A DNA stretch of 64,000 bases from Paradevosia shaoguanensis (lineage in GTDB: Bacteria > Pseudomonadota > Alphaproteobacteria > Rhizobiales > Devosiaceae). Of this stretch, positions 473-7,346 are shown in pieces; within the stretch, counting starts at the first letter, position 1; each line of letters starts with the position of its first letter. The position numbers and the translations under genes are program-made. The notes under the pieces are model-generated. The model saw nothing but the letters and a program-made list of their open reading frames with translations, made no database searches and was not told the DNA's origin. The stretch is taken from the NCBI RefSeq assembly GCF_016801025.1, contig NZ_CP068983.1, forward strand, positions 4,518,501 through 4,582,500, written 5' to 3'.

Positions 473-1282
473 ATGCCCCGTCCGATGGCTCACACAAGCC
501 TTAAATGGTCGATGATCGAGGAAGATCTTTCCATCGGCGACAAGTTCCGGCTCGTTGCCGATCTCGGGTTTGACGGCATCGAGCTCGATGCTCCCAACGA
601 TCTGCCGGTTGCGGAAGTTCTTGCGGCGCGGGATGCGACCGGGCTGGCTATTCCGGGTGTCGTCAACGCGGCGCACTGGAAGACGCCGCTGACCGATCCC
701 GACCCGGCCGTTCGCGAGGCGTGCGTGGCGACAACCATCGAGGCGTTGCGGCTGGCCAAGGCTTATGGGGCAGAGACGATGCTGCTGGTGCCGGGCGTCG
801 TCAACGACAAGACGAGTTATGCCGCCGCCTATGATCGGGCGGTCGAAGGCATCGATCGGCTGTTGCCGCATGCCGAGGAGATCGGCGTTTCGATTGCGCT
901 GGAAAACGTGTGGAACGACTTCCTGCTGAGCCCGCTGGAGGCTGCGCACCTTGTCGACGGTTTCGACAGCCCGCGCCTGGGTTGGTATTTCGATGTCGGC
1001 AACGTCATGCGCTATGGCCGTCCGAGCGACTGGATCGAGGCCCTGGGCTCGCGCATCATGCGCATCGACATCAAGGAATACAGCCTCAAGCGCATGAATG
1101 CCGAAGGCCCGTGGAAGGGCTTCGATGTCGCGCTCGGGGAAGGCGATATCGATTGGGCACAGGTCAATCGCAGCCTTGCCGCAATCGGCTACAATGGCTG
1201 GGTTTCGGTCGAGGTGCCGGGCGGCAATCGCCAGCACCTCGCCGATATCAAGGCGCGCCTCGACCGGATCGTCAGCCTCTGA
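473..1282 (+). CDS. TIM-barrel sugar phosphate isomerase/epimerase family protein
   Basis: This is a single-domain xylose-isomerase-like TIM barrel (AP endonuclease 2 superfamily) of about 269 residues. Characteristic strand ends are visible: GFDGIELDAP, the acidic IALENVW, FDVGNVMRYG and the late GWVSVEVPGG, which together normally supply the metal-binding Glu/Asp/His set. The start is uncertain: TTG 461, ATG 473 and ATG 485 are in frame, and an AGAGAG stretch near 446-452 would best serve TTG 461. Members isomerise or epimerise sugars, and some act as deglycosidases on 3-keto-glycosides. Its 3' end overlaps by 11 bases the convergent gene of the same superfamily. The context (GMC oxidase, Gfo/Idh/MocA dehydrogenase) points to sugar or glycoside breakdown; the exact reaction is unknown. 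Confidence 0.8.
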   Translation: MPRPMAHTSLKWSMIEEDLSIGDKFRLVADLGFDGIELDAPNDLPVAEVLAARDATGLAIPGVVNAAHWKTPLTDPDPAVREACVATTIEALRLAKAYGAETMLLVPGVVNDKTSYAAAYDRAVEGIDRLLPHAEEIGVSIALENVWNDFLLSPLEAAHLVDGFDSPRLGWYFDVGNVMRYGRPSDWIEALGSRIMRIDIKEYSLKRMNAEGPWKGFDVALGEGDIDWAQVNRSLAAIGYNGWVSVEVPGGNRQHLADIKARLDRIVSL

Positions 1283-2156
1283 CCTCGTCCAGCATGCGGC
1301 GGATATTATTGAGGCCAACCTCGCAGCCATAAAGGGTGGGCTCGTTGCCCTCGTATTCGAGCGACACGAATCCATCGTAGCCGGAGGCAACGACGCTCTC
1401 GATCAGGCCCTTGGTGTCGAGGTCGCCGAAGCCGAACACCGAGCCGCGGATGAACTGGCCGCCGGCAGTCTCGAGCCAGCCCGGGCCGGGCTCGGTGCGA
1501 CGCACATAGAAGTCCTTAAGGTGTACGAAGCTGGCAAAGGGCAGGCTACGGCGGGTGGCGACGTGCGGGTCCTCATCGACGCAGAGGAAATTGCCGACAT
1601 CGAGCGTGAAGCGGAAGTTCGGGTTGTTCACGGCGTGGATCAGGCGCAGGACGCGCTCGCTCGAATTCATGAAGAAGCCGTGGTCCTCGACGCTGGTGAC
1701 GACGCCGTGGGCGGCGCCGTATTCGGCCACTTCCCGGCTGGCATCCGCGATGACGGCGAATTCGCGCTCGAATTCTTCGGTGCTGGGGCGCAGGTGCCAG
1801 GGCACCACGTCATGCCGCAGGAAGCCCGCGCCGAAGCGCTGGCAAAGGTCGACATAGCGCTTCACGTTCTCGATCTGGGCGCGCCGCTCGCTGTCGGAGC
1901 CGAGAAAGTTGGCCGCCATGCAAAAGCCCGAGATGGGAATATTGGTACGCGCGGAAGCCGCTTCGAGCTGCCGCAGGGTCTCCTCTTCGGAGGCAAGGTC
2001 GTAGTTCGCCTCGGTGCCGCGCTTCGCAAAGGAGAAGGTGGCGATTTCGAGATGCTCCGCCCCGTTTTCGCGCAGCCAATCGAACATGCCGTCGACGGTC
2101 AGCTGGCCATCCACCAGCATCGGGCGGAAGCTATAGGAGGAAAGACCCAGTTTCAT
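1272..2156 (-). CDS. TIM-barrel sugar phosphate isomerase/epimerase family protein
   Basis: A second xylose-isomerase-like TIM-barrel protein, 294 residues, starts at ATG with MKLGLSSYSFRP. It carries the usual superfamily blocks: VTSVEDHGFF (metal Glu), FTLDVGNFLC (Asp), FVHLKDFYVR (His) and FVSLEYEGNE (Glu). It is not a close copy of the neighbouring barrel gene, so the two probably act on different intermediates or form a heteromer, as in two-subunit deglycosidases of the same fold (inference). It is transcribed away from the GMC oxidoreductase gene. The 128-base divergent region between them therefore probably regulates both sides. Confidence 0.85.
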   Translation of the reverse strand: MKLGLSSYSFRPMLVDGQLTVDGMFDWLRENGAEHLEIATFSFAKRGTEANYDLASEEETLRQLEAASARTNIPISGFCMAANFLGSDSERRAQIENVKRYVDLCQRFGAGFLRHDVVPWHLRPSTEEFEREFAVIADASREVAEYGAAHGVVTSVEDHGFFMNSSERVLRLIHAVNNPNFRFTLDVGNFLCVDEDPHVATRRSLPFASFVHLKDFYVRRTEPGPGWLETAGGQFIRGSVFGFGDLDTKGLIESVVASGYDGFVSLEYEGNEPTLYGCEVGLNNIRRMLDEVRG

Positions 2157-2261
2157 GGTGGAGCAGCTCCGATTGAGGGAAAGGGCGGGCCGAGATAGCC
2201 CGATGGAAATGATTTTGTGACGGATCGCACGAGCGACTTTACACGCCGAATTAAATCACTG

Positions 2262-2278
2262 ATACCAATTACATACCA
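2262..2278. promoter_or_regulatory. Phased ATACCA direct repeat in divergent promoter region
   Basis: Two ATACCA hexamers start at 2262 and 2273, 11 bases apart or about one helical turn. They lie just upstream of the GMC gene and within the region shared with the divergent TIM-barrel gene. The opposite strand reads TGGTAT twice, reminiscent of GntR-family half-sites. No regulator gene is present within the window beside it. This is a candidate operator by position and spacing only. Confidence 0.3.
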
Positions 2279-2284
2279 GCACAC

Positions 2285-3781
2285 ATGGATAGCCTCATGT
2301 CCGCAAAATCCACCGATGTCGTGATCATTGGCAGCGGCCCGACCGGTAGCGCCTATGCGCGGGTCATCCGCCGCGATTGGCCAGAAGCCCGCATAGTGAT
2401 GGTGGAGGCGGGACCACAGATTCTGCCGCAGGTCGGGGGGCATCTCGATAATGTCACCGACCTCAAGAAGCGCGCCGCGCTCGAGGTGCAGGCGCAGGGC
2501 GGGGATCGCACGCCACGCCTCTCGATCAGCAAGGAAGAGTGGGAGGCGCGCCGCGCCGGCGGATTCGATGCGTCGATGCTGCGCCGCTCCGGCCTTTTCA
2601 TCGCCAATGAGTCGGATCCGAGCGAAAGCCTCTTTGCCGGCTTCGCGGCGGCCAATGTCGGTGGCATGGGCACCAAGTGGTCGACCGGCACGCCGACGCC
2701 GTCGCAGGCGGAACGTGTTCCATTCATCCCGGCGGATGAATTGCAGGCAGCAATCGAGGTCGCCGAAGGGCTTCTCGGCACCAACAAGGACCCGAATGCG
2801 GGCGACGTGACGGCCATTGCCCTGCGCGAAAAGCTCGGCGAGGAATTCAACCCCGGCCGGGGCCCCGACCGGACGGTGCGGGCCATGCCCCTGGCGGCTA
2901 CGCCGGGGCCGGATTGCTTGCGCTATCACGGCACCGACGTCGTGCTGGGGCCGCTTGTCGATGAGGCGCCCGAGACCTTCGAGATTCTTGCCGAAACCAT
3001 CTGCCGTCGGGTCGTGCATGAAAATGGTCGCGCCACGGGAGTGGAGCTCGTTCGCGCGGGCGAAGAGGAGCCGTGGTTCCTGGCGGCGGGTACCGTCGTC
3101 GTCGCCTGCGACTCGCTTCACACGCCGCAACTGCTCTACGCGTCCGGCATTCGGCCGGCGGCGCTCGGCCGATACATCAACGATCACTACATCGTCTCGC
3201 AGATGGCCGAGATGCAGAGCGATCCGCCGATGCGGGCGATGAACTGGATTCCGGCGACCAACGATTTCCCGTTCTCGGTGACCATCCACGCGACGACCCT
3301 GAGTTCCATCGACAGGACGCCGGGCTTTACCGGCCAGCCGGTGGGCATGGGCGTGTTCTGCCCCTCTGACATCGATGCCGATAACCGGCTCGAGTTCGAT
3401 GACGAGCATCTGGACTGGCACGGCCTGCCCTCGATCTCGATCAAGTGGAAGCAGTCGGAGGGCGACAGGGCGCGGCTCGAAAGGGCAAAAGCCACCGCGA
3501 TCCGCATTGCCGAGATCATCGGTCGCCCTGCCCCGGGCTTTGCCACCATCGTGCTGCCGGTGGGCAGTTCCCTGCACTACCAGGGGACCGTGCGCATGGG
3601 CGAGAGCAATGACGGAACAAGCGTCTGCGACCGCAACAGCCGTGTCTGGGATTTCGAAAATCTCTACGTCGCCGGCAATGGCGTGATCCCGACGGTAACC
3701 GCCACCAATCCGACCCTCTACTCGGTCGCGCTGGCAAGTCTGGGCGCACGCCAGATCGCCCAGGCGCGCCGCACAATCTGA
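2285..3781 (+). CDS. GMC-family FAD oxidoreductase, pyranose-oxidase-like
   Basis: The 498-residue protein begins with a Rossmann FAD motif, VVIIGSGPTGSAYA. It ends with the two blocks typical of pyranose-2-oxidase-like GMC enzymes: SSLHYQGTVRMG and NLYVAGNGVIPT followed by ATNPTLYSVA. In this family a His and an Asn form the catalytic pair; here they would be His431 and Asn475, spaced as in pyranose oxidase (inference from motif position). There is no signal peptide, so it is probably cytoplasmic. ATG 2297 is an alternative start; neither has a convincing ribosome site. It is followed after 17 bases by a Gfo/Idh/MocA gene, forming an operon. Expected activity is oxidation of a sugar-ring hydroxyl, possibly at C-3 of a glycoside; the substrate is unproven. 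Confidence 0.85.
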   Translation: MDSLMSAKSTDVVIIGSGPTGSAYARVIRRDWPEARIVMVEAGPQILPQVGGHLDNVTDLKKRAALEVQAQGGDRTPRLSISKEEWEARRAGGFDASMLRRSGLFIANESDPSESLFAGFAAANVGGMGTKWSTGTPTPSQAERVPFIPADELQAAIEVAEGLLGTNKDPNAGDVTAIALREKLGEEFNPGRGPDRTVRAMPLAATPGPDCLRYHGTDVVLGPLVDEAPETFEILAETICRRVVHENGRATGVELVRAGEEEPWFLAAGTVVVACDSLHTPQLLYASGIRPAALGRYINDHYIVSQMAEMQSDPPMRAMNWIPATNDFPFSVTIHATTLSSIDRTPGFTGQPVGMGVFCPSDIDADNRLEFDDEHLDWHGLPSISIKWKQSEGDRARLERAKATAIRIAEIIGRPAPGFATIVLPVGSSLHYQGTVRMGESNDGTSVCDRNSRVWDFENLYVAGNGVIPTVTATNPTLYSVALASLGARQIAQARRTI

Positions 3782-3798
3782 CAGATCGAAAGACGAAC

Positions 3799-4857
3799 AT
3801 GACCGCCACAAAACTGAGGGTATTGGTCGTTGGCCTCGGCCAGATGGGCCGCAGCCATGCGCTGGCCTATCATGGGCATCCGGGCTTCGAAATCGTTGGG
3901 CTGGTCAACCGCTCGACGCCGAACCTGCCCGAGGCCCTGAGCCCCTACCCCGTTCGCAACGACTTTGCGGCGGCGCTGGCCGAATTCAAGCCGGACGTGG
4001 TTTCCATCGCGACGCACACCAACACCCATGCCGACTACGCCGTTGCGGCGATGGAAGCCGGCGCGCATGTCTTCGTCGAAAAGCCGCTGGCGGCTACGGT
4101 GGAAGACGCCCGTCGCGTGGTGGCCGCCGCGGAAGCCAATAACCGCAAGCTGGTGATCGGCTATATCCTGCGCCACCACCCCTCGTGGATGAAGCTCATC
4201 GAAGAGAGCCGCAATCTTGGCGGCCCCTATGTCTTCCGCATGAACCTCAACCAGCAATCGAGCGGCGCGGCCTGGGACATTCATCGCTCGATCATGCAGA
4301 CGACCTCGCCGATCGTCGATTGCGGCGTGCATTATGTCGATGTGATGTGCCAGATCACCGACGCCAGGCCGGTGGAGGTGCGCGGCATGGGCGTTACGCT
4401 CGCCAAGGGCCTGCCGGCGGGCATGTACAATTACGGCCACTTCCAGGTGCTGTTCGATGACGGCAGCGTCGGCTGGTACGAGGCCGGCTGGGGCCCGATG
4501 ATGTCGGAAACCGCCTTCTTCGTGAAGGACGTCATCTCGCCCAATGGCGCGGTCTCCATCGTCATGGAACAGGGCGCGGCCTCGGCCGACATCAATGCCC
4601 ATACCCAGACCTCGCGCATCCTCGTCCATCACGGTGCGCTCGGAGCGGACAACAAGCCGGCCCAGCCGGACACCTGGCTCGACATGCATGGCGAGCCCGA
4701 CCACCAGGGCCTGTGCGATCGCGAGCAGGATTTCGTCTATCGCGCCATCACCGAGGATTTCGACCTGCGCCGCCACATGAACGACGCCGTGATGTCGCTC
4801 CACATCTGCCTGGCGGCCGATGAAAGCGTGCGGACGGGTAACGCGGTGAAGCTCTAG
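3799..4857 (+). CDS. Gfo/Idh/MocA family NAD(P)-dependent oxidoreductase
   Basis: The 352-residue protein has an N-terminal Rossmann fold with the nucleotide loop VVGLGQMGRSHA. The conserved EKPLA follows, with the Lys that closes the cofactor site, and the C-terminal domain carries VDCGVHYVDVM, where His/Asp are the usual catalytic or substrate residues. The family oxidises or reduces sugars, inositols and their keto forms with NAD(P). It sits 17 bases after the GMC oxidase gene, so the two are very likely co-transcribed and act on the same sugar pathway. Which direction and substrate apply cannot be read from the sequence. Confidence 0.85.
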   Translation: MTATKLRVLVVGLGQMGRSHALAYHGHPGFEIVGLVNRSTPNLPEALSPYPVRNDFAAALAEFKPDVVSIATHTNTHADYAVAAMEAGAHVFVEKPLAATVEDARRVVAAAEANNRKLVIGYILRHHPSWMKLIEESRNLGGPYVFRMNLNQQSSGAAWDIHRSIMQTTSPIVDCGVHYVDVMCQITDARPVEVRGMGVTLAKGLPAGMYNYGHFQVLFDDGSVGWYEAGWGPMMSETAFFVKDVISPNGAVSIVMEQGAASADINAHTQTSRILVHHGALGADNKPAQPDTWLDMHGEPDHQGLCDREQDFVYRAITEDFDLRRHMNDAVMSLHICLAADESVRTGNAVKL

Positions 4858-5748: not shown

Positions 5749-6990
5749 TTAGCGCAATGCAGGTCTCAATCCGCTGCGCTGCTTCTGCAGGAAGCGACGT
5801 ACGGCCGGGTCGGCTTCGAGACCGATGGCTCTGGTGTATGCGGCATCCGCCGCGCTGATATCGCCAAGGCGAACGAGTAGTTCGGCGCGGGCGGCCCAAT
5901 AGGGTTGGTATTCGGCCAGGCGATTATCGGCTGTCGGAAGCGCGGCCAGGCCTGCGGCAGGTCCTTGTGTTTCGGCGACGGCGATGGCGCGGTTGATGAG
6001 GGCAACGGGTGAATTCGTGATGGCGCAGAGGCCGTCGTAGAGCTGCACGATCGCTGGCCAGTCGGTCAAGCCGCTGCGGCGGCCGTCGATATGGGCCGAT
6101 TGGATGGCGGCTTCGAGCTGGTAGCGGCCGAACCCACCGAGTTTGCTGGCGCGCAATAGCAGGGTTTCGGCTTCGGTGATCATAGGGTGACCCCAGAGCG
6201 CGATGTCCTGGTCGGCGAGAGGAACGAATTCGCCATGCTGGTCTCGCCGCGCGGCCTGGCGAGCGTGGGAATAGAGCATGAGGGCGAGAAGGCCGAGGGC
6301 TTCGGGTTCCTGCGGGAGAAGTTCGGCGATCAACCGGCCCAGCCAGATAGCCTCTCCGGCAAGATTGCGCAGGCTCGCATCGGCGCCGGCCGGGTCGTTC
6401 CAACCGCCGGCATAGGCGCCGTAGACGGCTTCAAGCACGGGCGAAAGGCGGTCGGGCAGCTCGGAGCGGTCGGGGACACGCAAGGGAATGCCGGCGGCCT
6501 TGATCTTGGCCTTGGCGCGGGACAGGCGGGCACCCATTGTTGCCGGTGCGACGAGGAAGGCCGAGCCGATTGCCTGGGCGTTGAAGCCGAGGATGGTCTG
6601 CAGGATCAGGGGCGACCGGATGCCGGGCTCGATGGCCGGATGGGCGCAGGCGAACATGAGGGCGAGGCGCTGGTCGGGAATGGGTCGGGTTTCGCTCGAC
6701 ATATCCTGCAACTCCTCGGCGATGAGCCGCAGATGGTCACTGGCAGCAGTCGTGACCTTGTCATGGCGGCTGGCGTCGATGCGCTTTCGACGGGCGATGG
6801 CCAGGAGCCAGGCTTCCGGATTGTCCGGCACGCCGTGGCGGGGCCAATCCGCCAATGCCGCAGCGAAGGCCTCAGAAAGGGCATCCTCCGCGCCGACCAC
6901 GTCGCGGGTGCGGGCCGCGAGAATGGCGACGAGTTTTCCGTAGCTGCGGCGGGCTACGGCTTCGGCGACGGCATCGGAGGTTTCCGGCAT
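5749..6990 (-). CDS. ECF sigma factor with C-terminal TPR-like extension (ECF42 type)
   Basis: The N-terminal part has sigma-70 region 2 (VVGAEDALSEAFAAAL, then NPEAWLLAIARRKRID) and region 4 (ILGFNAQAIGSAF... MGARLSRAKAKIK). A long alpha-helical extension of about 220 residues follows (DUF6596/TPR-like), as in the ECF42 group. This group lacks a classic anti-sigma factor and is encoded beside YCII/DGPF-domain proteins, which is the case here. ATG 6990 is used as start; a TTG at 7002 would overlap the stop of the YCII gene and is a serious alternative. At 413 residues the length is normal for the group. The target promoters are unknown. Confidence 0.88.
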   Translation of the reverse strand: MPETSDAVAEAVARRSYGKLVAILAARTRDVVGAEDALSEAFAAALADWPRHGVPDNPEAWLLAIARRKRIDASRHDKVTTAASDHLRLIAEELQDMSSETRPIPDQRLALMFACAHPAIEPGIRSPLILQTILGFNAQAIGSAFLVAPATMGARLSRAKAKIKAAGIPLRVPDRSELPDRLSPVLEAVYGAYAGGWNDPAGADASLRNLAGEAIWLGRLIAELLPQEPEALGLLALMLYSHARQAARRDQHGEFVPLADQDIALWGHPMITEAETLLLRASKLGGFGRYQLEAAIQSAHIDGRRSGLTDWPAIVQLYDGLCAITNSPVALINRAIAVAETQGPAAGLAALPTADNRLAEYQPYWAARAELLVRLGDISAADAAYTRAIGLEADPAVRRFLQKQRSGLRPALR

Positions 6991-6998
6991 ACGGCGGC

Positions 6999-7346
6999 TC
7001 AATAAACCATCAACGGCCGGATCTCGACAGCGTAGCGCTCCGCGCCGGGGCAGCGTACGGCCCAGGCGATGGCGGCATCGAGGTCTGGAACGTCGATGAC
7101 GAAATAGCCGCCGAGCTGCTCCTTGCTTTCCACATAGGGACCGTCCCAGAGCGCCGGGCGACCATCGGGTGCGCGCACGATGGTCGACGTCGTCGAGGGC
7201 TGGAGGCCGGCCGAGGTAACCAGCGCCCCCGCCTGCCGCAGCGCTTCGGCATAGGCTGCGTAAGCGGCGAAGCTCTCGGCTTTCCGCTCATCTGAGGCGG
7301 CGGTGTTTTCGGCTTCGTTCCAGTGGACCAGGAGCATGTATTGCAT
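6999..7346 (-). CDS. YCII-related (DGPF) domain protein
   Basis: This 115-residue single-domain protein starts MQYMLLVHWNEAE and has the conserved centre WDGPYVESKEQLGGYFVID, with DGPF-type residues and the conserved acidic positions of the YCII fold. Such proteins are standard partners of ECF42 sigma factors. Their role, as possible sensors or small enzymes, is not settled. The gene lies immediately upstream of the sigma factor on the same strand and is probably translated with it. Confidence 0.88.
   Translation of the reverse strand: MQYMLLVHWNEAENTAASDERKAESFAAYAAYAEALRQAGALVTSAGLQPSTTSTIVRAPDGRPALWDGPYVESKEQLGGYFVIDVPDLDAAIAWAVRCPGAERYAVEIRPLMVY

Follow-up and report, generated by a model that had tools for sequence, protein, structure and literature searches.

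Four adjacent genes of Paradevosia shaoguanensis encode a GMC flavoenzyme, a Gfo/Idh/MocA oxidoreductase (Gfo) and two TIM-barrel proteins, here called barrel A and barrel B. Do they form one pathway, and if so, what does it act on? The genes lie in a stretch of 64,000 nt (the window, G000:C1:4518501-4582500) of the complete 4.63 Mb genome. Pfam assigned both barrels to AP_endonuc_2 and the other two proteins to the GMC and Gfo/Idh/MocA families, and the coordinates (Table 1) place the four genes side by side. This is in agreement with an earlier, sequence-only reading, which had described a pyranose-oxidase-like GMC enzyme and a Gfo/Idh/MocA dehydrogenase next to two barrels lying tail to tail; the barrel genes are indeed convergent, and their 3′ ends share 11 bp. 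As the Gfo gene starts only 17 bp past the stop codon of the GMC gene, these two are probably transcribed together.

Table 1. Positions of the four genes and of the divergent gap between them, counted from the first nucleotide of the window.
Feature	Position	Strand	Description
Barrel A	473-1282	+	Xylose-isomerase-like TIM barrel; AP_endonuc_2, Pfam 147 bits
Barrel B	1272-2156	-	TIM barrel, putative metal site; AP_endonuc_2, Pfam 118.8 bits
Divergent intergenic region, barrel B / GMC	2157-2284	.	128 bp
GMC flavoenzyme, pyranose oxidase / C-glycoside 3-oxidase family	2285-3781	+	GMC_oxred_C 68.8 bits
Gfo/Idh/MocA oxidoreductase	3799-4857	+	GFO_IDH_MocA, Pfam 92.9 bits

The conservation of this arrangement was assessed in 38 loci from Devosia, Rhizobium and other Hyphomicrobiales, which were fetched via related GMC genes. 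In 36 of the 38 loci, barrel A (+) is followed by barrel B (-) and GMC (+), in the order and on the strands seen here. All four genes are present in the same order and orientation in 24 loci, and 12 have the first three genes without an adjoining Gfo. Two of these 12 (L009 and L015) reach a contig end; setting them aside leaves ten loci, all from Rhizobium. The remaining two loci show barrel B, GMC and Gfo without barrel A, and one of the two lies at a contig end. The Gfo gene adjoins the GMC gene in 26/38 loci altogether. When 397 Hyphomicrobiales genomes were searched, the two barrels were matched in exactly those six genomes in which the GMC protein was matched at full-length strength, with the genes side by side, and only one further genome gave a partial and weak GMC match. 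The pairwise distances of the four proteins are correlated (r 0.73-0.90), to which shared descent contributes. Given the recurring order and strands and the exclusive co-occurrence, we conclude that the four-gene neighbourhood is a conserved unit and not a product of chance.

The closest relatives of the module in this genome are found in Devosia, with GMC identities of 84-85%, which places the genome in the Devosiaceae (Hyphomicrobiales). In the GMC tree the Rhizobium sequences nest beside those of Devosia, which suggests transfer. The GMC gene of Rhizobium sp. BG6 (L056:8001-9493) was matched in two pieces in different frames and may carry a frameshift.

The GMC flavoenzyme

The solved structures closest to the GMC protein are ScPOx (8qve, 320 bits), PsG3Ox (7qf8, 314 bits) and CarA (7dve, 306 bits), all matched over the full length at 39-40% identity. 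As the NCBIfam pyranose oxidase model gave 177 bits against a cut-off of 544.9, the protein is, judged by its sequence, a member of the pyranose oxidase family and not an equivalog. The phylogeny bears out the kinship proposed in the sequence-only reading, since the module GMCs group with the pyranose and C-glycoside oxidases, where they form their own sister clade to CarA, PsG3Ox and ScPOx (support 79/86, present in 200/200 bootstrap trees), and the other GMC proteins of this genome fall apart from them.

The catalytic pair H431/N475 aligns with H440/N484 of PsG3Ox. The spacing is 44 residues in both proteins, as had been noted from the sequence, and the pair is invariant in the 13 module members that were aligned. 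The protein has the length of the monomeric type and contains a stretch resembling insertion 1. In the alignment to PsG3Ox, the flavinylation-motif His is exchanged for a Lys (K131), so that a His-FAD bond is not possible at this position; in the monomeric ScPOx and PsG3Ox the FAD is non-covalent despite this His. The pocket is altered as well. D55, S133, I303 and T333 stand in place of PsG3Ox K55, T129, Q297 and Q340, and R101, the equivalent of R94, is retained. Within the module GMCs, S133 is changed to Thr in one member and I303 to Leu in one and Gln in another. PsG3Ox residues K55, R94, T129 and Q340 have been reported as important for binding of mangiferin. From the sequence we infer that the GMC protein is a glycoside C3 oxidoreductase.

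One member of this group may already have been assayed. A screen of ten bacterial pyranose oxidases, one of them from R. hainanense, found prominent glucose activity in two, and the R. hainanense enzyme was not among these. Since the R. hainanense genome encodes a single GMC protein of the module kind, namely that of its module, the screened enzyme is probably the module GMC. Its lack of prominent glucose activity fits a glycoside rather than glucose as substrate. According to published accounts, work on bacterial pyranose and C-glycoside oxidases has dealt mainly with actinobacterial enzymes, and detailed studies of the Pseudomonadota branch are lacking; through the module this branch gains fixed partner genes and with them a testable pathway.

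The two barrels

Barrel B has a putative metal site made up of E157, D186, H212 and E267, plus a His two residues past the first Glu (H159). All five residues are invariant in every aligned relative, including those from Bacillota at 37-41% identity. In AtOGE of Agrobacterium tumefaciens the corresponding set is H132, D163, H189 and E233 with H134 as the base, and in the CGEs a Glu replaces H132 (PMC10628242); the residues of barrel B match the roles reported for these five positions. The E-x-H motif is found at the aligned place in the CarB-type barrels of Arthrobacter and Deinococcus and is absent from YcjR. It is also present in the Agrobacterium hydratase and in the homologue of that hydratase, and can therefore not separate an eliminase from a hydratase. 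Judged by its residues, barrel B is a putative eliminase, the more likely of the two. A profile of barrel B matched DgpC/CGD chains weakly (E about 1e-8, over short stretches), and the AtOGE structure 8bvk was not among the matches of this profile search.

Structures of both barrels were modelled without metal. For barrel B (pLDDT 88.7) the closest fold is the isomerase Art22, with Z 35.2 and rmsd 1.9 over 274 residues; the next fold follows at Z 29.3. Where barrel B has Glu-Asp-His, Art22 has Glu-Asn-Tyr, with the Tyr in place of the catalytic His. Going by the gene naming, Art22 is probably the same-named protein of the aurantinin (art) cluster. Aurantinin B carries a 3-keto sugar. The reaction of Art22 itself was not found in the papers searched. 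Two of the Bacillota relatives of barrel B (L051 and L052, 37-41% identity) adjoin an alpha-L-fucosidase, or an L-fucose isomerase, a kinase, an aldolase and a Gfo, a context in which a link to fucose is possible.

In barrel A the residues E144, D174 and E247 are invariant. D199 occupies the position of the usual metal-ligand His, which is a His in barrel B and also in a Haladaptatus relative of barrel A, and there is no His two residues past E144. The folds closest to the model of barrel A (pLDDT 92.9) are epimerases. UlaE (Z 30.2) leads, in a tie with Art22 (29.4), and MJ1311 (28.2) and YcjR (27.6) follow. The match to AtHYD (8ro4) reaches only 22 bits. Barrel A may be read as either a 3-keto-sugar hydratase or an epimerase. 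The sequence-only reading had set its proposal against a grouping of the barrels with true inosose or hydroxypyruvate isomerases, and they are not near these enzymes: their scores lie at about 20-30 bits, where the cut-offs are 290-353 (IolE 20/290, hydroxypyruvate isomerase 30/353).

A proposed route by oxidation and elimination

The reading that we favor, with a probability of roughly 0.55, is that the four genes form one metabolic module that cleaves a glycoside by oxidation and elimination, not by hydrolysis. The GMC enzyme would oxidize the C3 hydroxyl of a sugar ring, the electrons going to O2 or to a different acceptor. By means of a Mn-type metal site, and using H159 as the base, barrel B would then take the C2 proton and expel the aglycone or the next sugar by beta-elimination. 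Barrel A would handle the released keto-sugar as a hydratase or 3-keto-sugar epimerase, and the Gfo protein would be the NAD(P)H-linked reducer of the 3-keto sugar, giving a free sugar for central metabolism. These steps, their order and the division of roles between the barrels are what we infer from the observed families, catalytic residues, arrangement and co-occurrence.

The scheme draws among other things on the composition of the module, which equals that of the A. tumefaciens operon encoding GlycDH, AtOGE, AtHYD and a Gfo, where oxidation, elimination, hydration and reduction have been proposed as the steps (PMC10628242). Each set comprises a GMC flavoenzyme, a pair of AP_endonuc_2 barrels and a single Gfo, and the metal and base residues of barrel B have their equivalents in the operon. 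The set of families also fits the logic of 3-keto-glycoside cleavage systems as the sequence-only reading had argued, the GMC protein lying in the pyranose/C-glycoside oxidase group. The two systems differ in that GlycDH is reported to be only ~20% identical to the POx/CGOx group (PMC10628242), in which the module GMC has its home, and in gene layout, with the module barrels lying tail to tail and GMC-Gfo divergent from barrel B. Several observations count against the cleavage scheme: the E-x-H motif that barrel B shares with the Agrobacterium hydratase, the Art22 fold of barrel B, the epimerase folds of barrel A and its low score with AtHYD, and the ten Rhizobium loci without an adjacent Gfo.

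We also considered the barrels as orthologues of AtOGE and AtHYD and rejected this, as the homologues of those proteins sit elsewhere in the genome and barrel A hardly resembles AtHYD. The locus at 4.23 Mb (G000:C1:4231270-4240120) has the order Gfo, AtHYD homologue, Gfo, AtOGE-like barrel and sugar ABC transporter, without a GMC gene. Its AtHYD homologue scores 593.6 bits to 8ro4, and its AtOGE homologue 132.6 bits with an H-N-H motif. Since the genome has its own AtHYD and AtOGE homologues, the module is a second system, separate from the OGE/HYD-type operon. The same four-step chemistry has been proposed for the levoglucosan pathway (LgdA/B1/B2/C), which likewise has two "sugar phosphate isomerase" barrels and a Gfo (PMC7676230). 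Entry is there by the NAD-linked Gfo LgdA, whereas the module has a flavoenzyme, and the module Gfo gave 63 bits with the LgdA model, which has a cut-off of 650. Glycoside-cleaving kits of this sort are already known. The module most likely works like these 3-keto-glycoside cleavage pathways, but it is put together from uncharacterized enzyme branches. If the proposal is true, unrelated enzymes have here been combined in yet another way to carry out the same chemistry, and the module may provide new biocatalysts for hydrolase-resistant glycosides.

The same four enzymes could instead remodel a glycoside without cutting any bond: the GMC protein would make the 3-keto-glycoside, the barrels would epimerize C4 or C2, and the Gfo would re-reduce C3, as in the YcjQ/YcjR/YcjS system of Escherichia coli. 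That system also combines a barrel and a Gfo acting on 3-keto-glycosides, but it has no GMC enzyme. The structure model of barrel A speaks for such a role, being nearest to sugar 3-epimerases, YcjR among them, as do its two retained Glu residues, E144 and E247; in ketose 3-epimerases two Glu form the acid/base pair. Foldseek matched barrel B to YcjR too, yet barrel B has the eliminase His two residues past the beta-5 Glu, and YcjR lacks this E-x-H motif. Furthermore, the Gfo protein is not near YcjS in the Gfo tree, and a single epimerization needs no two different barrels, so we regard remodelling as unlikely, if the most plausible of the rivals. Catabolism of a cyclitol, in which the GMC or Gfo protein would oxidize an inositol-like ring and the barrels would act as an IolE/IolI-type dehydratase and isomerase, is considerably less probable. 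The weak matches do include models or structures of IolG, IolE and IolI, and the residues of barrel B are compatible with a dehydratase too, but the scores stay far under the equivalog cut-offs (IolG 89 of 355 bits, IolE about 20 of 290), and what the GMC family is known to oxidize is pyranoses.

Least probable of all is a CarABC-type C-glycoside deglycosidase with the two barrels as its two subunits, and here the sequence-only reading, which had likened the barrels to CarB/CarC or DgpB/DgpC, did not hold. In both of these pairs a single barrel subunit is joined by the small CGDB protein (PF19906), so that a CarC-type subunit is not a barrel. A search of this genome for PF19906 gave none, and the same search matched the positive controls in two plasmid records, from Arthrobacter and Deinococcus, beside CarA-type oxidases. 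The module would accordingly have two unrelated barrels in place of CarB and no CGDB subunit. The GMC protein does belong to the CarA family, sharing the His/Asn pair, a similar length and the Arg equivalent to PsG3Ox R94 with CarA, PsG3Ox and ScPOx, and barrel B has both E-x-H and an N-terminal motif in common with CarB-type barrels. Against this, barrel B has no full-length similarity to CarB, and the GMC protein differs from the three oxidases in its separate clade, the Lys at the flavinylation His, the Ser at T129 and the D, I and T at the aglycone-side positions K55, Q297 and Q340.

The Gfo protein, amino sugars and flanking sequences

For the cleavage route that we favor, the Gfo protein offers a lead to the substrate. 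Among curated family models it is not near IolG, LgdA or other named ones. Its closest relatives outside the module (61-71% identity) are encoded in N-acetylglucosamine operons of the Alphaproteobacteria Rhizobium, Sinorhizobium, Paracoccus, Ruegeria and Sagittula. These operons contain a GlcNAc kinase and sugar ABC genes, and mostly also nagA, a SIS protein and a MurNAc-6-P etherase. In the Gfo tree, from which row L039 was disregarded because it had been read in the wrong frame, the module Gfos group beside those of the N-acetylglucosamine operons. Gfo proteins of the same subfamily lie inside alphaproteobacterial N-acetylglucosamine/MurNAc operons at L058-L062, L115 and L116. The ten Rhizobium genomes without an adjacent Gfo each have one such homologue elsewhere, and in both of the two that were checked it lies in the nag operon. 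A literature search on what the Gfo protein does in N-acetylglucosamine operons found no paper.

This kinship points to amino sugars as a lead and not as proof, because many rhizobia carry an N-acetylglucosamine operon. A more specific version would be that N-acetylhexosaminides, such as sugars derived from chitobiose or muropeptides, are broken down by oxidation and elimination in a route which feeds N-acetylglucosamine catabolism and in which the pocket of a pyranose oxidase family enzyme has been changed for an N-acetylated sugar. We consider this version quite unlikely.

No conserved flanking genes were found across the compared loci, where transporters and other neighbours vary, and reading the substrate from neighbouring genes was rejected as no pattern holds across loci. 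Individual neighbours include the end of a rhamnosidase gene upstream of the module (L010), a fumarase (L006) and amino-sugar type genes encoding NanE, a BadF kinase and a SIS protein (L011:3951-9737 and L024:9769-11687). Just upstream of the window (L005:7160-15867), a NamZ exo-N-acetylmuramidase, a LacI regulator, a peptide-type ABC transporter and an alpha/beta hydrolase lead into barrel A. The NamZ and peptide-ABC genes precede barrel A in this genome only and are not conserved with the module.

Most Devosia loci have ATACCAAT/ATACCAG repeats upstream of the GMC gene (window 2240-2284 and the gaps of L006-L010, L012, L013, L037 and L042). They resemble GntR half-sites and are possibly operator half-sites, a reading of the sequence that is suggestive only. 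The Rhizobium loci have another conserved stretch (GATACATCCTTGTTT) in the gap upstream of the GMC gene. Half-sites like ATACCAAT that are common to the Devosia module promoters and the Rhizobium nag promoters were set aside as too short for evidence. Past the module, at 5749-7346 of the window, a gene for a sigma factor with DUF6596 lies beside a small YCII-like gene.
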